NCBI RefSeq assembly: GCF_024360925.2 | Contig: NZ_CP113517.1 | Coordinates: forward strand, 3,720,001 to 3,784,000 | Source of the DNA: Methylomonas rapida | GTDB taxonomy: Bacteria; Pseudomonadota; Gammaproteobacteria; Methylococcales; Methylomonadaceae | DNA: 64,000 bases | Reading direction: 5' to 3' | Part shown: in pieces, positions 18,694 through 56,335 of the stretch | How positions within the stretch are numbered: the stretch's first letter is position 1 | Layout of the letters: each line of letters opens with the position of its first letter | The notes under the pieces: model-generated | What the model was told of the DNA's origin: nothing | Database searches by the model: none | What the model saw: the letters and a program-made list of their open reading frames with translations, nothing else | Program-made: the position numbers and the translations under genes

Positions 18694-21600
18694 TTGTCAA
18701 TGCCGAGGCCTTATGTCCTCCAAGACAAGCTGATCGGCTATTCTCGAGTTTTGCCAGCCATTCCCATGCATCGACTATTCTCTCTTGTGTTACCGCTCAT
18801 TGCCTGCATCGCGCTCGTTGTCAGCTGGCACGAGCTGAATCAGCGGCACATGCGCAATCTGCAAGACCATTTCAAACTGGAATCCCAGCGTCTGGCCACC
18901 AAGATCGATGAACGCATGGCCGCCTATGCGCAGATCTTGCGTGCCGGCGCCGGCTTATTCGCGGCTTCCGGCGAAGTCACGCGCAATGAATGGCACCGCT
19001 TCGTCAAACAACTCAATCTGGATCAATCCTATCACGGCATTCAAGGCGTGGGATTTTCGCTGTACCTTCGTCCCGAGCAGCTGGCCAAGCACATTCAAGA
19101 CATCCGCCGCGAAGGATTTGCGGACTACCAGATCCAACCCGATTCCCTTCGCGCCGAATACAGCAGCATCATTTATCTGGAACCCTTCGCCGGGCGCAAT
19201 CTGCGCGCCTTTGGCTACGACATGTATTCCGAACCGGTCCGCAATGCGGCGATGACCCTGGCGCGCGACAGCGGCAAGGTGGCTTTTACCGGCAAAGTCA
19301 CACTGGTGCAAGAAACCCACGAAAAGATACAAGCGGGTTTTTTGGCTTACACCCCGGTTTACCAGAACGGCGTTTTACCCGACACCGTCGAGCAACGCCG
19401 GCAAAAACTGGTCGGCTGGGTCTATAGCCCCTTTCGCGCCAACGATTTGCTCGATCCCATTCTCCAAAACGATCTGGGGCCGATACGGCTTGAAATCTTC
19501 GACGGCGACGACACCGAGCCGCAAGCACTGCTATACGACAGCGCCAACTATTTTCTGGATACCCCGGCCCCGCCGCCCGTGGAAAATGGCATCTTCAGTT
19601 TAGTGACCCGGTTATCGCTGGAGGGGCACCACTGGACGCTGCGTTTCAACGCCTTGCCCGAGTTCGTGTCATCCACCAAGCTTGAACCGCCATGGGTGGA
19701 GATGTCGGCCATCGGCATCATCACGCTATTATTGTTTACAACCAGCTGGGCCTTCTTCAACACCCGCAAACACGCCCAGCACATTGCCGGGCAATTGACA
19801 AAAACCCTGCGCGAAAGCGAAAACAAGCTGAAACGCATCCTGGACGACATGCCGGTCGGCATTTGCCTGGTGGAGCAAGCGGGCCAAATCTCCTTTCGCA
19901 ACCAGCGTTTCAGACAATTGTTTGGCTATAGCGAAAAAGACGCGCCGTCACTCAAGGAATGGTGGCAATTGGCCTATCCAGACCCCGATTATCGCCGGCA
20001 AGTGCTCGAGACCTGGAACGGCGAAATCGCGCGCGCCGCCAGCACCGCCACCGATATAAAGCCCATTGAGTACCGCGTCACCGCAAAAAACGGACAAACG
20101 CTGGACGTGCAGATTTCCGGCATCACTTTCGGCGAAAGTTTTCTTGCCACCTTCGTCGATCAGACCGAGCGCAAACGCCTGGAACAACACCTGGCCACCC
20201 GTAGCGACGAACTCCAGGCCATATTCGATGCCGCCCCGCTGGGCATCGTGTTGCTGCGTAACCGCATCGTCCTGAACTGCAACCATAAACTGGAACAACT
20301 CTTCGGCTACTACGCCGGCGAACTGTGCGGAGATTCGACGCAAAAATGGTTCACGGACATCGCCGCATACCAGCGCTTTGGCCAGGAATTGTATCCCCAT
20401 CTCGGCACGGACAAAGCCGCTCAGCGCGAACAACTCTTCGTAGGCAAAAATGGGCGCACTTTCTGGGCGAGAGTCACGGCCCAATTATTGAGCCATTCCA
20501 CGGAAGGGGATACCTTGATCGCCATCATCGAGGACATGACCCAGGAACGCGAAGCGACCGCCAGGCTCGCGGAACAAAAAGAATTGGCCGAAGCCGCCAG
20601 CCGCGCCAAAAGCGCCTTCGTCGCCAACATGAGCCACGAAATTCGCACGCCGATGAACGCCGTGCTCGGTTTGCTGCAGTTGCTGCAACACACCGACCTG
20701 AACCCACGCCAACTCGACTATACGCAAAAAATCAAGGCCGCCGCGCAGTCCCTACTGGCTATCTTGAATGACATCCTGGATTTTTCCAAAGTAGAAGCCG
20801 GCAAACTGGTGCTCGACAGCACCGCATTTCGCCTCGATGAATTGCTGCGCAATCTCTCGGTCATGCTGGCTACAAACCTGCATAACAAGCAGGTCGAGAT
20901 ATTGTTCGAGCTCGACCCGAAAGTTCCGCGTGCCTTGCGCGGAGACCCGCTGCGGTTGCAACAAGTGCTGCTGAATCTGACCGGCAACGCCTTCAAGTTC
21001 ACCGAGCACGGCGAAGTCATCCTCGGATTGCACTTGGTGGAGGCCACGCCGGATTCCGCCCGGATCGAGTTTTCCATACGCGATACCGGCATCGGTATTC
21101 CCGCGGACCGCTTGAATGCCATTTTCGAGGGCTTTGCCCAGGCGGAATCATCGACCTCGCGCCGCTATGGCGGCACCGGCCTCGGTTTGCCTATCAGCCA
21201 GCGCCTGATCCGTTTGATGGGCGGCGAACTGATCGTCGAAAGTACGTTAGGCCAGGGGAGCCATTTTCATTTCATTCTCGACTTTGCCCGCGACGCCGAA
21301 ACCCTGGCAACTGAACGAGAAGTCGTGCGCGGCATCGACCCTGACACCTTGTCGCGCCGCATGCATGTCTTGATAGTCGACGACAATGCCACGGCTCGCG
21401 AGGTGTTGGCGCACACCACGCAATCCTTCGGCTGGCGTACCGTAACCGCGGCCTGCGGCAACGAAGCCCTGGAGTTGATACGAGACCGGCTCAAGATCGG
21501 CGATCCATTCGATGTCATTTGCATGGATTGGCTGATGCCCGGCATGGACGGCTGGGAAACCGCTCAACGCATACGCGCGCTGCAACATGAATCTATTGGC

Positions 21601-48228: not shown

Positions 48229-48393
48229 TCATGTTGCGAATTGTGGACGTATTTAAATCAGTCGGCAATTCAGTGTAGGGTACGCATCGTGTACCAATCG
48301 AAGGCCGAGCCGGTGCGCAAAGCAGAAGGTACGCGGTGCGTACCCTACATGGCTTTTGGATGACCACGCCGCCCTGGTTCCCACGGTCTTCCG
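48229..48393. repeat. Left part of the second ~300-bp repeat unit, cut by the composite transposon
   Basis: Matches 47929-48088 with a few changes; REP palindromes at 48279-48295 and 48328-48344. It ends in CGGTCTTCCG (48384-48393), the outer target duplication. The right part of this unit is at 56262-56335. Confidence 0.8.
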
Positions 48394-49852
48394 CTCATCG
48401 TTATACACATCTCTGTGCGACAACCTGCTGAGCTTCCAATGCAATGACAAAATCGCGCAAACGCTGCAGTCCGATCCACATGGCTTTGGCACCCGGCGGC
48501 CCGTCATGCTTGCGTCCGAGATAACCGCCCAAGCTCGCCACCAAGAGAATCACTTCGCCCAAGCGAGGTGGCGTAAGCGGCGGCGGGCAAAGCTTAACCA
48601 CAATGTAAGCAGCCCGCCACTCCTGTGGATCGAAGATAATTTCACAATCCATGTCCGGCGTAGTCCGTCCCAACATCAGCGTGAACAATACCCGCCAGGC
48701 AATAACCATGTACAACGCTAAACAAGGTAGCAGTCGGTCCTCGGTTTCCAGATGCAGTCGCTTAATCTGGCATCCGCTCTTGAGCACATGGAAGTACACT
48801 TCAATGCACCACCGCACGGCGTACCACATGACGATCGTTGCCGCCTGTTCGAAACAATCGATCGGCAAGCTAGTCAACAATAGCCATTCCAAACGTTCCA
48901 CGCCAGACGGTGGTGCATCTTCGCGTGCCAGCACCGCATTGATGGTGAGTTCCGGTAGCCGATACCCTATCCGCTTAGGCGGTTTGAGGGTCACTGTAAT
49001 GGCGCGTAACGTGATATGCGCCAGTCGCGCCGTGCGGTTCGGTCGCGGTTTGACGTTCACCTCAGAGTAACCCAATACAGGAGCTTGCTCCACGGCGGCC
49101 CACAGGCATTTCGTACCGTTCTCCGGCGAAGCCAACACTCGGTTTTGCGCCGCACGTACGATCCATTGAGCCCGTACCGCAGGTGCGTAGTCATGGTATT
49201 CGGCAAACCACTCGTAAATATCGCCCTCCCTGTCGGCAAGATTGATCAGCAGGGTGTCCGGCATTTGCGCCTGTAAAGCGCAACTGTCCTGGTAACTTTC
49301 CAGCCAATGGCGACTCTCTTTTTCGTCTACGCCTTTGTGAAGTCGTTCACTCCTTTGGCTTGGGATCTCTCGAGGCCAATACGATGCTTTCACGACACCC
49401 AAACAAATACGCGATGGCGTAAAGGCAACTGTCGGATGCAGGCGGCGCAAGTGTTTCTCCACGTCTTTCACTGTGCCAAGTCCCTTCGGCCCCAAGCAAA
49501 TATTCTTATCGTCCTCGGTGGTGTCCTGTGCCAGCAGCACGATTGGGCTGCTCTTCATGCGCTCGATCGTGGCATCTCGATGCGGCGCCAGTATCTTCTC
49601 GAATGTCGTCTTAGCGTTATTGAAGAAGCGATAGGCTCCCATCGTCTCCTTCCAGCCTCCGCAGGCCGCCGGAATACTGAGTTGTGGATGCTCGCCCAAT
49701 TGCTCCAATAGCAAGGCCAATCTCTTGTTTAGACGTTGATCTTCCAAATTGGCAGTTTGCACTTCTTCTTCGGCCCAGTTGCTCATCGCCTTTCTCCTGT
49801 TTCTGTGTCTCCTTGTAGTTTAGTCTTTGAGGGACTTGTGTATAACGATGAG
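48394..49852 (-). mobile_element. IS50-like insertion sequence (IS4 family), left copy
   Basis: Ends CTCATCGTTATACACATCT (inner-type) and, in the other orientation, CTCATCGTTATACACAAGT. Both align with the 19-bp IE and OE of IS50 (TTATACACAAGT for OE, ATCT for IE), which fixes the boundaries. Identical in sequence, as far as read, to the copy at 54803. Confidence 0.9.
48401..49786 (-). CDS. IS4-family (Tn5-like) transposase
   Basis: 461 residues with Tn5 transposase architecture: N-terminal DNA-binding part (MSNWAEEEVQTANLEDQRLN, SIPAACGGWKETMGAYRFFN), first Asp in IVLLAQDTTEDD, second Asp in INLADREGDIYEWF, and Glu in the YREK-like motif YAVRWCIEVYFHVLKSGC; the C-terminus resembles the Tn5 dimerisation domain. 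A shorter inhibitor form from an internal start, as in IS50, is possible. Stop codon overlaps the IS end. Confidence 0.95.
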   Translation of the reverse strand: MSNWAEEEVQTANLEDQRLNKRLALLLEQLGEHPQLSIPAACGGWKETMGAYRFFNNAKTTFEKILAPHRDATIERMKSSPIVLLAQDTTEDDKNICLGPKGLGTVKDVEKHLRRLHPTVAFTPSRICLGVVKASYWPREIPSQRSERLHKGVDEKESRHWLESYQDSCALQAQMPDTLLINLADREGDIYEWFAEYHDYAPAVRAQWIVRAAQNRVLASPENGTKCLWAAVEQAPVLGYSEVNVKPRPNRTARLAHITLRAITVTLKPPKRIGYRLPELTINAVLAREDAPPSGVERLEWLLLTSLPIDCFEQAATIVMWYAVRWCIEVYFHVLKSGCQIKRLHLETEDRLLPCLALYMVIAWRVLFTLMLGRTTPDMDCEIIFDPQEWRAAYIVVKLCPPPLTPPRLGEVILLVASLGGYLGRKHDGPPGAKAMWIGLQRLRDFVIALEAQQVVAQRCV

Positions 49853-49882
49853 CGGCGGACCGTGGGAACCAGGAAAATTAGA

Positions 49883-49959
49883 TATGCAGGCAAATTTGCC
49901 CGATTTACCGGCTAATATCAAAATATTAGGCATATTTGCCTGCTAATCAATGGTTATGC
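49883..49959 (-). other. attC-like site, probably truncated by the IS
   Basis: Arms GCAGGCAAATTTGCC and GGCATATTTGCCTGC enclose a loop; the right core is GTTATGC (49953-49959), where the stop of the first cassette gene lies. The left core (RYYYAAC) is missing, so the site may have been cut by the IS or belong to a variant. Confidence 0.4.
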
Positions 49960-50172
49960 GTTATCAACAATCGCTTTCTTTGCGTCTAAAATTTGCTCAT
50001 CTGTAAGGTGTTCAAATTCTCCAATACCAAGTGTTTTCCTGCACGCTTGCCCAATTGGAGATTTTGCGCCCTGGTGGTGATACAAAATCCAAGTCAGTAG
50101 CCTTCTGATATGCCGCAATTCATTCTCGGCTTCTTCATTACCATATGTTGCTTCGTCTAATGCTGTCAGCAT
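49954..50172 (-). CDS. Integron cassette protein, hypothetical (72 aa)
   Basis: MLTALDEATYGNEEAENELRHI... is mostly helical, with RRLLTWILYHHQGAKSPIG and FEHLTDEQILDAKKAI; soluble and acidic. GGAG lies seven bases before the ATG, and the stop codon lies in the core of the downstream attC-like site. Upstream is the attC at 50188. Size and flanks are those of a gene cassette; function unknown. Confidence 0.65.
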   Translation of the reverse strand: MLTALDEATYGNEEAENELRHIRRLLTWILYHHQGAKSPIGQACRKTLGIGEFEHLTDEQILDAKKAIVDNA

Positions 50173-50187: not shown

Positions 50188-50273
50188 GCATAACACGGCA
50201 CTAAAGGCGACACCCGGAAGCATCGCGGTATTGTTTAATTTAGTCGGCGGCGCGCCTTAGTTCGGCGTTATGC
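50188..50273 (-). other. attC recombination site 1
   Basis: Cores GCATAAC (50188) and GTTATGC (50267). The arms pair imperfectly: GCATAACACGGCACTAAAGG against the reverse complement GCATAACGCCGAACTAAGGC, with unpaired bases on one strand as in folded attC. 86 bp, orientation for minus-strand cassettes. Confidence 0.8.
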
Positions 50274-50470
50274 GGCACATTTCCAGTTCCGCCGCATTTG
50301 TGGCACGATTCGCTCTCTAAACCGTACAAACGCAAATCGGCATAGTCTGTTTTGACTTCACCGCTCCCGGCACATGCCAGGCATTTCCGCATAACCACAC
50401 GTTGCACCGGAACAGCTAAAGCTAAGTCGTTTTCGGTGTCGCCGTCTTCGTTAAAATTTATTTCACTCAT
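50240..50470 (-). CDS. Cassette protein with two DnaJ-type CxxCxGxG zinc motifs
   Basis: 76 residues. Residues 1-28 (MSEINFNEDGDTENDLALAV then PVQRVVMR) are encoded by attC site 2 and are shared with the protein at 51400. The middle is a minimal zinc ribbon, CLACAGSGEV ... CHKCGGTGNV, like the DnaJ central domain, and the last residues (NAELRRAAD) are encoded by the arm of attC site 1. It may be a small chaperone- or RNA-binding zinc protein. Its start overlaps the upstream cassette gene. Confidence 0.6.
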   Translation of the reverse strand: MSEINFNEDGDTENDLALAVPVQRVVMRKCLACAGSGEVKTDYADLRLYGLESESCHKCGGTGNVPHNAELRRAAD

Positions 50471-50517
50471 ATCGTTCTCCAGTTAATCCGCTGTCCGGTA
50501 AACTCTGCGCGTTAGGC
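50389..50517 (-). other. attC recombination site 2 (129 bp, VCR-like length)
   Basis: Cores GCATAAC (50389) and GTTAGGC (50511). Arms GCATAACCACACGTTGCACC (then GGAACAGC) and, as reverse complement, GCCTAACGCGCAGAGTTTAC (then CGGACAGC) match at most positions. Contains the start of one cassette gene and the stop of the next. Confidence 0.8.
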
Positions 50518-50792
50518 GGCTCATTCTGGTTCGTCTTGTTGTAATCAAGTTGTGCCTTATAGGCACAACGCGCCAACAACAATACCGCCTCAGCTAATCC
50601 AACAACCTCTAACCTATCTTCTTCATTATCGCTTTGCGATAGCCTTATCAATTGTTCTGCGGTTTTCTTCATTGCCCAAAAATGAAGCATCACATTTATT
50701 TCATTGTTATCATCCACGCTTTGTAAATAACCGTCGCGTTTACCTTCTGCGTGCCCAGTGTAAAAACCGTGGCCCCATTGTTTACTACTCAA
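50463..50792 (-). CDS. Integron cassette protein, hypothetical (~109 aa)
   Basis: Start chosen at a TTG six bases after GGAG (upstream frame extends 4 codons to another TTG at 50804). Helical product with GFYTGHAEGKRDGYLQSVDD, MLHFWAMKKTAEQLIRLSQS and VVGLAEAVLLLARCAYKAQL. Its last residues, PNAQSLPDSGLTGERYE, are encoded by attC site 2, and it overlaps the next cassette gene by 8 bp. No family recognised. Confidence 0.5.
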   Translation of the reverse strand: MSSKQWGHGFYTGHAEGKRDGYLQSVDDNNEINVMLHFWAMKKTAEQLIRLSQSDNEEDRLEVVGLAEAVLLLARCAYKAQLDYNKTNQNEPPNAQSLPDSGLTGERYE

Positions 50793-50811
50793 ATTTTTCT
50801 CCAATAAAAAC

Positions 50812-50868
50812 GCATAACCAGTCAGTCAACCCGACCGCTATCGCGGCGGGTTACTTTTTGCGTTATAC
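50812..50868 (-). other. attC recombination site 3 (57 bp)
   Basis: Cores GCATAAC (50812) and GTTATAC (50862). The stem is clear: CAACCCGACCGC TATC GCGGCGGGTT, with mismatched spacer bases near the cores. The shortest and best-formed site of the array. Confidence 0.85.
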
Positions 50869-51096
50869 GTCAAAATCATTTTCGTGAAATAATTCGATCG
50901 TTTCTTTTGATTTACTATTCGCAGTCAATTTTATGTACCACCATCCGGACGCAACAGAATTTTCACGATCAACAAATCCAACCCGCCCAGGATATTTGGG
51001 TTTTCCGAGACGATCCTGGTCTCGCCGTATCGTAACAATCTGTCCAGGCCGTATAACTCGGCGCTCAACCGGAGCGCGGAAGCAAGGTTCATTCAT
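50863..51096 (-). CDS. Integron cassette protein, SH3-like (77 aa)
   Basis: MNEPCFRAPVERRVIRPGQI... has a KOW/SH3-like beta pattern: IRPGQIVTIRRDQD, KYPGRVGFVDRENSVASGWW and YIKLTANSKS. The first ~16 codons lie inside attC site 4 and the stop codon lies in the core of site 3. A fold similar to small beta-barrel binding proteins is likely; function unknown. Confidence 0.6.
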   Translation of the reverse strand: MNEPCFRAPVERRVIRPGQIVTIRRDQDRLGKPKYPGRVGFVDRENSVASGWWYIKLTANSKSKETIELFHENDFDV

Positions 51097-51139
51097 TTCT
51101 CAGTCTCCTGGGCCGCGCCCGGTTAGCTTTGCGTTATGC
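51051..51139 (-). other. attC recombination site 4 (89 bp)
   Basis: Cores GTATAAC (51051) and GTTATGC (51133). Arms GTATAACTCGGCGCTCAACC (then GGAGCGCGG) and reverse complement GCATAACGCAAAGCTAACCG (then GGCGCGG) pair well. Confidence 0.85.
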
Positions 51140-51400
51140 GGAATCTAATATTTGCTTAATTCTGCTAATGAACTGCTCTTTTGTTTCATGATGCGATGTA
51201 CAAACATGTGTAATTTGTTCCAGTTTGTCAGTGGCAAAATCTATATCTAAACCAACTTGCTTCGGGTCTGGCTGTTCTGTATCGGCTCCTCGGCGCCATT
51301 CATTGAAATAGCGCAGCCTCATAACCACACGTTGCACCGGAACATCTGAAGCTGCGCGGTTTTCAGAGTCTTTGTCTTCGTCAAAATTCGTTTCACTCAT
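51134..51400 (-). CDS. Integron cassette protein, hypothetical (88 aa)
   Basis: Starts MSETNFDEDKDSENRAASDV then PVQRVVMR, the same attC-encoded N-terminal peptide as the zinc protein at 50470, followed by an unrelated body (LRYFNEWRRGADTEQPDPKQ, ITHVCTSHHETKEQFISRIK). The stop lies in the core of attC site 4. The body looks like a small helical domain. No family recognised. Confidence 0.6.
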   Translation of the reverse strand: MSETNFDEDKDSENRAASDVPVQRVVMRLRYFNEWRRGADTEQPDPKQVGLDIDFATDKLEQITHVCTSHHETKEQFISRIKQILDSA

Positions 51401-51447
51401 GAATCTCTCCAGTTAATCCGCTGTCCGGTAAACTCTGCGCGTTATAA
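51319..51447 (-). other. attC recombination site 5, end of the minus-strand cassette run
   Basis: Near-copy of site 2: TCATAACCACACGTTGCACC at the left and AACTCTGCGCGTTATAA at the right (51441-51447). It contains the start of the cassette gene at 51400. The hicA gene starts 18 bp beyond, on the other strand. Confidence 0.75.
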
Positions 51448-51465
51448 GTGGTTATAATAACCATC

Positions 51466-51648
51466 ATGAACAGCAAGCAACTGATTAAGCAACTGGAACA
51501 AGACGGCTGGTATCTGGCGCGGGTCAAAGGCTCACACCACCAATTCAAGCACCCCACCAAACCCGGTTTGGTCACCGTCAAGCATCCAGACAGCGACATT
51601 CCAAAACCCACGTTGCACAGTATTTACCGGCAAGCCGGTTGGCGTTAA
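51466..51648 (+). CDS. hicA: HicA toxin
   Basis: 60 residues from MNSKQLIKQL (frame opens six codons earlier). dsRBD-like mRNA interferase with the active-site His in VKGSHHQFKHP, and GLVTVKHPDSDIPKPTLHSI at the end. It cuts mRNA and tmRNA when free of HicB. It precedes hicB by 19 bp. A HicAB pair next to cassette sites is common, since toxin-antitoxin pairs stabilise arrays. Confidence 0.92.
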   Translation: MNSKQLIKQLEQDGWYLARVKGSHHQFKHPTKPGLVTVKHPDSDIPKPTLHSIYRQAGWR

Positions 51649-51667
51649 TTGCATAGGAGAAGCACCC

Positions 51668-52060
51668 ATGAAATTTACCGTTGTTTTGCATACTGATGAT
51701 GGTCATCATTACGGGGTCATCGTGCCTGATCTTCCCGGCTGTTTTTCCGCCGGTGACGGCATCGATGAGGCGCTGTCATCCGTCATAGAAGCCATTGACC
51801 TGCATGTTGAAACATTGCTGGAAGACGGCGGCGATATTCCGGCACGTTTGCCCATCGATGCGCACAAAGACAATCCTGATTTTGCCGGCGGTATTTGGGC
51901 GGTCGTTGACGCGCCCATTGAAAAATACTTTGGCCCGGCGGAAAAAATCAACATTACCTTACCCAAGCTGTTACTGGCCAAGATCGATAGCTATGCTAAG
52001 GCGCATGGCGCTACCCGCTCAGGGTTTCTGGCCGATGCGGCGCGCTCTGCCATGCGGTAA
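51668..52060 (+). CDS. hicB: HicB antitoxin
   Basis: 130 residues. The N-terminal partial RNase H-like fold has DDGHHYGVIVPDLPGCFSAG and IDEALSSVIEAIDLHVETLL. The C-terminus is a ribbon-helix-helix DNA-binding domain (INITLPKLLLAKIDSYAKAH, RSGFLADAARSAM) for autoregulation. AGGAGAAGC precedes the ATG. It binds HicA and represses the operon. Confidence 0.93.
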   Translation: MKFTVVLHTDDGHHYGVIVPDLPGCFSAGDGIDEALSSVIEAIDLHVETLLEDGGDIPARLPIDAHKDNPDFAGGIWAVVDAPIEKYFGPAEKINITLPKLLLAKIDSYAKAHGATRSGFLADAARSAMR

Positions 52061-54664: not shown

Positions 54665-54802
54665 TTTTTTTCCTCTTCTGATAGTCGGCAACGGCTTGTT
54701 TTTTGATTTCCAAGCCGCATATCTGTGTTTCTCTCGTTCCCGCGCTCCGGCGTGGGAATGCATATCGGTCTTCCGCGTCGCATGGATTCCCACGGCGGAC
54801 CG

Positions 54803-56261
54803 CTCATCGTTATACACAAGTCCCTCAAAGACTAAACTACAAGGAGACACAGAAACAGGAGAAAGGCGATGAGCAACTGGGCCGAAGAAGAAGTGCAAAC
54901 TGCCAATTTGGAAGATCAACGTCTAAACAAGAGATTGGCCTTGCTATTGGAGCAATTGGGCGAGCATCCACAACTCAGTATTCCGGCGGCCTGCGGAGGC
55001 TGGAAGGAGACGATGGGAGCCTATCGCTTCTTCAATAACGCTAAGACGACATTCGAGAAGATACTGGCGCCGCATCGAGATGCCACGATCGAGCGCATGA
55101 AGAGCAGCCCAATCGTGCTGCTGGCACAGGACACCACCGAGGACGATAAGAATATTTGCTTGGGGCCGAAGGGACTTGGCACAGTGAAAGACGTGGAGAA
55201 ACACTTGCGCCGCCTGCATCCGACAGTTGCCTTTACGCCATCGCGTATTTGTTTGGGTGTCGTGAAAGCATCGTATTGGCCTCGAGAGATCCCAAGCCAA
55301 AGGAGTGAACGACTTCACAAAGGCGTAGACGAAAAAGAGAGTCGCCATTGGCTGGAAAGTTACCAGGACAGTTGCGCTTTACAGGCGCAAATGCCGGACA
55401 CCCTGCTGATCAATCTTGCCGACAGGGAGGGCGATATTTACGAGTGGTTTGCCGAATACCATGACTACGCACCTGCGGTACGGGCTCAATGGATCGTACG
55501 TGCGGCGCAAAACCGAGTGTTGGCTTCGCCGGAGAACGGTACGAAATGCCTGTGGGCCGCCGTGGAGCAAGCTCCTGTATTGGGTTACTCTGAGGTGAAC
55601 GTCAAACCGCGACCGAACCGCACGGCGCGACTGGCGCATATCACGTTACGCGCCATTACAGTGACCCTCAAACCGCCTAAGCGGATAGGGTATCGGCTAC
55701 CGGAACTCACCATCAATGCGGTGCTGGCACGCGAAGATGCACCACCGTCTGGCGTGGAACGTTTGGAATGGCTATTGTTGACTAGCTTGCCGATCGATTG
55801 TTTCGAACAGGCGGCAACGATCGTCATGTGGTACGCCGTGCGGTGGTGCATTGAAGTGTACTTCCATGTGCTCAAGAGCGGATGCCAGATTAAGCGACTG
55901 CATCTGGAAACCGAGGACCGACTGCTACCTTGTTTAGCGTTGTACATGGTTATTGCCTGGCGGGTATTGTTCACGCTGATGTTGGGACGGACTACGCCGG
56001 ACATGGATTGTGAAATTATCTTCGATCCACAGGAGTGGCGGGCTGCTTACATTGTGGTTAAGCTTTGCCCGCCGCCGCTTACGCCACCTCGCTTGGGCGA
56101 AGTGATTCTCTTGGTGGCGAGCTTGGGCGGTTATCTCGGACGCAAGCATGACGGGCCGCCGGGTGCCAAAGCCATGTGGATCGGACTGCAGCGTTTGCGC
56201 GATTTTGTCATTGCATTGGAAGCTCAGCAGGTTGTCGCACAGAGATGTGTATAACGATGAG
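54803..56261 (+). mobile_element. IS50-like insertion sequence (IS4 family), right copy
   Basis: Same 1459-bp element as at 48394, opposite orientation; end CTCATCGTTATACACAAGT on the left (cargo side) and the inner-type end on the right. Flanked by CGGCGGACCG on the cargo side and CGGTCTTCCG outside. Confidence 0.9.
54869..56254 (+). CDS. IS4-family (Tn5-like) transposase
   Basis: 461 residues, the same protein as the copy at 48401-49786 with no difference seen. DDE residues in IVLLAQDTTEDD, INLADREGDIYEWF and YAVRWCIEVYFHVLKSGC are intact. AAGGAGACAC precedes, and the ATG follows GGAGAAAGGCG. The identity of the copies implies recent transposition or gene conversion. Confidence 0.95.
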   Translation: MSNWAEEEVQTANLEDQRLNKRLALLLEQLGEHPQLSIPAACGGWKETMGAYRFFNNAKTTFEKILAPHRDATIERMKSSPIVLLAQDTTEDDKNICLGPKGLGTVKDVEKHLRRLHPTVAFTPSRICLGVVKASYWPREIPSQRSERLHKGVDEKESRHWLESYQDSCALQAQMPDTLLINLADREGDIYEWFAEYHDYAPAVRAQWIVRAAQNRVLASPENGTKCLWAAVEQAPVLGYSEVNVKPRPNRTARLAHITLRAITVTLKPPKRIGYRLPELTINAVLAREDAPPSGVERLEWLLLTSLPIDCFEQAATIVMWYAVRWCIEVYFHVLKSGCQIKRLHLETEDRLLPCLALYMVIAWRVLFTLMLGRTTPDMDCEIIFDPQEWRAAYIVVKLCPPPLTPPRLGEVILLVASLGGYLGRKHDGPPGAKAMWIGLQRLRDFVIALEAQQVVAQRCV

Positions 56262-56335
56262 CGGTCTTCCGTGGGAACCCGTACTGCGTGTTGGAGGCTG
56301 GTATGCATTCCCACGCAGGAGCGCGGGAACGAGAA
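56262..56335. repeat. Right part of the interrupted repeat unit
   Basis: CGGTCTTCCGTGGGAACCCG (outer target duplication plus flank), TACTGCGTGTTGGAGGCTGG and the palindrome TTCCCACGCAGGAGCGCGGG, continuing the unit broken at 48393. The stretch to 56455 has no gene; a 19-bp palindrome GCCTAACGTTGAGTTAGGC (56456-56474) sits at its end and may be part of an attC. Confidence 0.8.

Follow-up and report, generated by a model that had tools for sequence, protein, structure and literature searches.

Integron attC sites of phage type that may double as translation starts for the cassettes behind them

Three attC-like sites of a cassette array in Methylomonas rapida contain both an SD sequence and an ATG, and the frame opened there passes through R' (GTT ATG/ATA) into the next gene. 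With a probability of roughly 0.6, we take them to be phage-type integron cassette sites in which the attC would double as a portable translation initiation region. In a wider form, which we hold tentatively and at somewhat worse than even odds, mobile units in the arrays of environmental phages and prophages would carry the start of the next gene at their 3' end, so that shuffling by IntI would swap N-termini together with genes and make start-less bodies mobile and immediately translatable.

Cassette array in the window

The window, i.e. the whole stretch of DNA analysed (64,000 nucleotides), covers positions 3720001-3784000 of the single-contig 4.59 Mb genome of M. rapida. From 51447 to 50188 its minus strand, to which all array coordinates refer, carries five attC-like sites, A to E, each with one small gene behind it. 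Site A (51319..51447) has R'' TTATAAC and R' GTTATGA, with the SD GGAG at 51407-51410 and the ATG at 51400, and its 3' half encodes a leader of 28 residues. Gene A (51134..51400, 88 aa) starts inside this site and joins the leader MSETNFDEDKDSENRAASDVPVQRVVMR to a body with the motif WRRGAD; its stop codon TAA lies within R'' of site B. Site B (51051..51139; R'' GCATAAC, R' GTTATAC) carries the SD AGGAG at 51105-51109 and an ATG at 51096, from which gene B (50863..51096, 77 aa) starts with the leader MNEPCFRAPVERRVI. As the TAA codons of genes A and B both sit inside the next R'', the direction of the array is fixed. Site C (50812..50868) is short (57 nt) and has no internal start codon, and site E (50188..50273) likewise has none. 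The genes behind these two sites begin after R': gene C (50463..50804, 113 aa from the listed TTG) has a second TTG, with GGAG, 19 nt behind R', and gene E (49954..50172, 72 aa), the final cassette gene, has its own SD (GGAG) and ATG. Site D (50389..50517; R'' GCCTAAC, R' GTTATGC), with the SD GGAG at 50477-50480 and the ATG at 50470, encodes the leader of gene D (50240..50470, 76 aa), which starts inside the site and consists of the leader MSEINFNEDGDTENDLALAVPVQRVVMR and a zinc-type CxxCxGxG body (E 2.1e-5 against PF00684, under the cut-off of that family).

The GGAG stands 6 nt before the ATG in A and D, and the AGGAG 8 nt before it in B. Gene C extends across site D's 5' half, and its stop codon, the TGA of ATGAGTGA, overlaps the ATG of the gene D leader; with the leader in the other half, both halves of site D are therefore coding. 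In the body of gene B, the first in-frame ATG, GTG or TTG follows only at +122 after R', so that by standard starts this gene would hardly be readable except from the attC ATG. Leaders A and D are identical in 20 of 28 residues, and the DNA of their sites is 85-86% identical over 125-130 nt, with identity dropping straight after GTTATG. The description in the earlier note thus holds, both for A and D as near-copies in which the genes at 51400 and 50470 start and remain alike up to the core, and for the site at 51096 as the source of the N-terminal residues of its gene.

The array is copied at 2243261-2247121 of the same genome, in a version that has two insertions with transposase genes. Because of this duplication there are merely two independent A/D-type sites here, and the window alone cannot choose between a device and an accident. 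The two insertions in the copy (L023, 5732-7401 and 7479-8602) are different elements with DDE transposase genes of 444 and 348 aa; they disrupt attC C and gene B and have 5- and 7-base repeats at their joints. An element carrying a Tn5-type transposase gene (461 aa) occurs twice in the window, in opposite orientations, at 48376-49871 and 54783-56279, and the two copies are 99.5% identical. This pair brackets the array together with phage genes, resembling a composite transposon, and copies also lie near the duplicate array. A HicA/HicB toxin-antitoxin pair (51448..52060, plus strand; PF07927, PF15919) borders the array upstream, on the opposite strand. The adjoining phage genes (52085..54089, minus strand) comprise an HTH gene with a weak excisionase match, an exonuclease and an endolysin, with PHROG matches to phrog_66 (E 5.8e-4), phrog_315 (E 2.6e-40) and phrog_255 (E 1.2e-62).

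Identity of the attC sites

R'' and R' are complementary in 6 of 7 positions in A, B and D, and the inner arms of the attC-like sites, ACCGG/CCGGT, pair in the folds. The strict R' consensus is GTTRRRY, from which R' of A, B and D deviates. In single-strand folding against shuffled sequences, C (z = -4.4) and B (-1.9) fold better than the shuffles, whereas E (0.34), A (0.27) and D (0.74) do not; the arms of site A pair in the single-strand fold although its energy is no better than that of shuffles. The five sites alternate with five co-oriented minus-strand genes, and the flanks differ around the same attC. The sole intI above the cut-off in the genome is intact (2150174-2151127, 446 bits) and distant from both copies of the array. 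As intI and attI are not beside it, the array in the window is a CALIN and not a complete integron. A crude scan of 2148000-2167000, around the genomic intI, gave no convincing attC array.

Relatives in genomes, plasmids and phage contigs

Site DNA of A type was found in one of the 61 genomes searched and the B-type pattern in one of 369 genomes of the class, in each case in this genome. As far as searched, the leader was accordingly rejected as a feature of methanotroph genomes, as it occurs only in this genome, save for weak body matches in three others (G088, G108, G143), and its relatives come mostly from phage contigs. The weak relative of the gene A body in G143 (L034; 41% over 34 residues, E 9.6e-4) has a different N-terminus. 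Among named phages, body homologues were weak for A and D and absent for B, and neither site A nor site B had a convincing match; among plasmids there was no convincing match to site A and one to site B. This one, on a plasmid of Methylomonas sp. AM2-LC (L211, 5990-6090), is a B-type attC of 76% identity with AAC in place of the ATG, and may be read as a decayed or start-less leader.

A scan with an L'-R' pattern gave 67 stretches in genome contigs and 8 in viral contigs, with 31 attC-like matches. Relatives of site B were found in four phage contigs (L106, L116, L120, L148), and in L106 the homologous site has an SD, an ATG and a different body. Scans for the anatomy of L106, with the phase left free, yielded 56 rows corresponding to 52 distinct loci, which together with 40 fetched contig pieces gave 48 distinct attCs of the family in phage contigs; within this main set, the pattern loci had been chosen for having an ATG, not for its phase, and were pooled with the fetched contigs after removal of duplicates. 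Two further pattern scans added 35 new loci with 2 family attCs among them, and a third added none. As the general attC finder was too noisy on phage contigs at low threshold, all counts are restricted to one family defined by its L' motif. The leaders of this family end in PV(E/Q)R, and examples such as MNEDYNRAPVERFVMR, MTYEEATLPTALVGPVERRVMR, MTTDTTMTPPTDANHRTAVAGPVERGVMR and MTEDTTTPAPSEPVAGPVQRPVGR are alike mainly at the end encoded by L'-R'. The sites in the window are one case of an attC family found mainly in environmental phage contigs.

The phage character of the contigs was assessed by PHROG matches of one or two proteins each from 21 of the 24 IMG/VR records (G213, G221 and G224 were left out). 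Portal, terminase, head, virion or tail families were matched in 12 of the 21 (a lytic tail protein in G217) and other phage-type families (lysis, helicase, integrase, methyltransferase) in 6, with nothing found in the remaining 3 (G210, G219, G232). Among the 24 records, G216 alone has an integron integrase above the cut-off; its intact intI (428 bits) is aligned with a cassette array comprising fused-leader sites and one site of the coupling type. In the phage record L171 (16878-19600), an intact intI lies on the same strand as the cassette genes and directly behind them, with a phage integrase adjoining, and the attC at 19400-19530 is of the coupling type, its ORF with SD and ATG being closed by a TGA immediately ahead of the following start codon. 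L173 (859-2409) has an integron integrase match of 244.6 bits that covers positions 7-210 of 315 and ends early within a longer open frame; given its position near a phage tail gene, it is possibly a broken or fused intI. The bodies of L138, L153, L162 and L276 open with R(L/P)xPER right behind R' (e.g. VGRLVPER), which may represent a common 5' end of cassettes. In three named attC-bearing phages, a crude finder detected 3 attCs, none with an SD-led leader.

Shared attC sites with exchanged bodies

Across the listed pairs, not all of which are leader sites, the attCs are 81-98% identical, the bodies 43-53% and the upstream flanks 40-56% where measured, with a mean body identity of 46% over all pairs. 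Seven of eight aligned pairs share the attC or leader type, and identity is lost within about 10 bases behind R'; in pairs with attCs of equal length, it also starts at R''. Thus L173 and L204 have attCs of 95% identity and different bodies, and L175 and L206 have one leader type and different bodies. Conversely, L173 and L175 share the methyltransferase body RCLDLFCGAGGAG behind different leaders; the two copies of the body are 84% identical over 150 nt and almost the same from some 12 nt past R' onward. This body matches 296 phage records; since the 12 homologues listed all align from residue 25 onward and the Pfam methylase domain begins at residue 34, the leader is an addition. The proposal that a constant leader would be fused to new bodies is supported by the anatomy of the sites, the occurrence of alike leaders before different bodies and of one body with two leaders, and the change of sequence at most about 12 bases from R'.

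Reading frames across R'

For each attC, the longest frame of the body was compared with the frame of the attC ATG, using one ATG per attC (an SD-bearing one first, then the most upstream). Sites with less than 120 nt behind R' were dropped (1 of 88 attCs, a genome one), and for the held-out set and the start-codon counts those with less than 150 nt (2 of 58 in the held-out run). One frame of CCGGTTGAGCG is closed by a stop, which leaves two open to leaders. An ATG in the PVER frame, open to R', was present in 28 of the 48 phage-contig attCs, and in 23 of these 28 it agreed with the longest frame of the body (p=1.5e-7 against an expectation of 1/3, p=4.6e-4 against 1/2); the counts are not fully independent because some bodies are related (L138/L141, L142/L155). 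The mismatch in L136 is a narrow one (96 vs 106 codons). Among PVER-frame leaders with an SD, 12 of 15 agreed. For an ATG in the other frame, agreement was 3/10 (3/4 with SD, 0/6 without), and in attCs without ATG the body was in frame 0 in 4/10. Sites without ATG and sites with an SD-less ATG in the other frame are thus at or below chance. The sites in the window agreed in 3/3 cases, and the two attCs from the further pattern scans in 2/2.

A held-out scan in which no ATG was required gave 26 new attCs, 25 of them usable. Agreement was found for 6 of the 9 with a PVER-frame ATG (p=0.042), and 7 of the 16 others had the body in frame 0 (Fisher within the set, p=0.25), a result that is weak alone, and two of the nine attCs (L251, L261) are near-identical. 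Among family members in bacterial genomes, agreement was 1/6 in the PVER frame and 3/4 in the other open frame, one of the latter with an SD. This site, in a Thermoanaerobaculia genome (L080, 1159-1287), is a family attC with AGGTG; its ATG lies in the second of the open frames and in phase with the body. It suggests that the device may extend beyond phages.

Start codons behind R' and conservation of the leader

An SD start within 60 nt of R' was found for 7 of 33 leader bodies and for 20 of 42 other attCs of the phage family (p=0.016), a contrast that depends on the control: among bacterial-genome members an SD start was present in 4/33, and the contrast disappeared when the span was 75 nt and every other attC was pooled for comparison (no SD start in 23/28 vs 46/59). 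Six of the 33 bodies behind leaders, gene B included, have no start codon at all from R' to +60.

In 28 leader pairs, which overlap, so that codon counts are descriptive and not a formal test, the differences by codon position were 77:79:76, with 34 synonymous and 120 nonsynonymous codon differences. Between leaders A and D, all 8 differing codons before L' are nonsynonymous. Since the differences carry no codon-position bias, the start and the frame look kept and not the peptide; conservation of the leader as a protein was rejected on these counts. The part of the leader before L' ranges from 24 to 63 nt. In RNA folds, the unpaired fraction was 0.73 for the ATG, 0.43 for the SD and 0.40 for the whole site. 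The leader looks to have been kept as a portable translation start instead of a tag.

Discussion

The proposed mechanism would work as follows. The attC has its SD and ATG towards its end; their frame passes the crossover core R' (G^TTRRRY) without a stop and, in the phage contigs, usually matches the longest frame of bodies that are largely unrelated. IntI would recombine the site through the usual single-strand hairpin. Because the leader would belong to the 3' end of the preceding cassette, translation of a cassette inserted behind it would yield a fusion of leader and body. The L'-R' arm of an ordinary attC is reported to hamper translation behind it, and a ribosome starting within the hairpin would also open this arm. 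With a body in another frame, the leader would end soon after R' and could serve as a short ORF for re-initiation, as ORF-11 does. Selection would seem to act on the start, the frame and the openness, not on the peptide; perhaps phage operons need compact arrays in which new genes are translated at once. The anatomy suggests that the attC start would let captured genes be translated in this immediate way.

It is rather unlikely, in our estimate, that the leader ORF serves only as a short upstream ORF for termination-reinitiation, with read-through into the body being incidental. Precedents for such ORFs exist in attI1 (ORF-11) and in attC, as described in the available text of PMC8876359; one attC in G216 has an ORF, opened by an SD-led ATG, that runs to a TGA shortly ahead of the following start codon, there are leaders that end soon after R' in L144 (11201), L151 (1522), L160 and L253, and in the window itself stop and start overlap at 50463/50470. 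The 23 of 28 leaders that continue in the longest frame of the body argue against a role in re-initiation only, as do gene B and the five other bodies that have no start codon of their own up to +60. Less likely still is a true start at the ATG of the R' core (GTTATGC) or at codons just behind it, which would make the attC part an accidental open frame. R' contains an ATG in 11 of the 33 leader sites, A and D among them, with GAGG 4 nt before it in L141 and L142, and by the criterion used an SD of 4 bases is missing in 14 of the 33 leaders. In comparator arrays at six loci (from Pseudoxanthomonas, one Thermoanaerobaculia genome and one Chromatiales genome), too, the first candidate start follows R' by 0-24 nt in 35 of the 51 sites listed; the finder behind this list includes doubtful sites. 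Against this, R' lacks an ATG in 22 of the 33, an SD precedes the attC ATG in 19 of the 33, and the observed agreement of frames would not be expected. Several Pseudoxanthomonas cassettes (L065, L069, L099) have their start codon 4-5 nt behind the AGG of R' GTTAGGC, as if the core acted there as a short SD.

That the leader peptide itself functions in the fused proteins, by targeting, degradation or partner binding, appears very improbable. Within one attC family the leaders resemble one another, and many are acidic and polar to the eye; this is outweighed by the even distribution of differences over codon positions, the ratio of 34 synonymous to 120 nonsynonymous changes, the lack of any synonymous change among the eight between A and D, and the variable length of the part before L'. 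The device for expression and tagging suggested by the earlier note is therefore retained in its first half: the SD, the ATG and the in-frame leader from the attC, and the alike leaders before different bodies, support it as anatomy, and the frame statistics support it further, whereas the tagging half is not supported, as the leader peptide gives no sign of being conserved at the protein level. We return to the attC as a portable translation initiation region as the preferred reading.

How translation gets past attC hairpins in cassettes distant from Pc, or in phage arrays where Pc is absent, is an open question. If the preferred reading is true, an answer for one class of sites would be an attC that carries a ribosome start and whose own arm is read through, N-terminal exchange would be a product of integron recombination, and start codons in cassette catalogues may be misplaced. 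An attC with its own start would also be a ready part for in-frame capture of cassettes.

Precedents exist in ORF-11 of attI1, in short ORFs in attC and in attC sites of phages. A description of an attC that encodes the N-terminal end of the protein from the following cassette was not found in the literature covered, subscription papers being mostly outside its scope; this feature is new as far as found, which is no proof of novelty. The accessible text of PMC9892861 reports attC sites and CALINs in phage genomes, some with intI, together with methyltransferase cassettes, and recombination of 5 of 6 tested phage attCs by IntI1. These resemble the present arrays in being phage-borne, with no leader reported in that text; in its main text, the terms start codon, translation and ribosome binding have no occurrence.

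ORF-11 is described in the available part of PMC8876359 as an SD and ATG in a recombination site, with an ORF that spans the crossover and aids TIR-poor cassettes, changes in its peptide mattering little. Going by that text, ORF-11 and ORF-18 of attI1 in class 1 integrons resemble the sites in the window in their SD and ATG and in the ORF over the crossover point. They differ in that they lie in attI and not in attC, serve the first cassette, and usually have their stop in the core or just behind it, which leads to re-initiation and not to fusion; the frames of A, B and D instead run on through the body, and coupling of the ORF-11 type was thus not what was found. Short ORFs within attC, which ease the hairpin barrier for the next cassette (Jacquier et al., as related in the portion of PMC8876359 at hand), are alike in their location in attC, whereas in the present sites the ORF continues in frame and forms the N-terminus of the next body. 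In fused cassettes such as blaGES-1/aacA4, the next gene is likewise translated from an upstream start (PMC4670013, as far as its accessible text goes); these fusions arise by loss of the attC, whereas in the present sites the attC is intact and itself encodes the leader.
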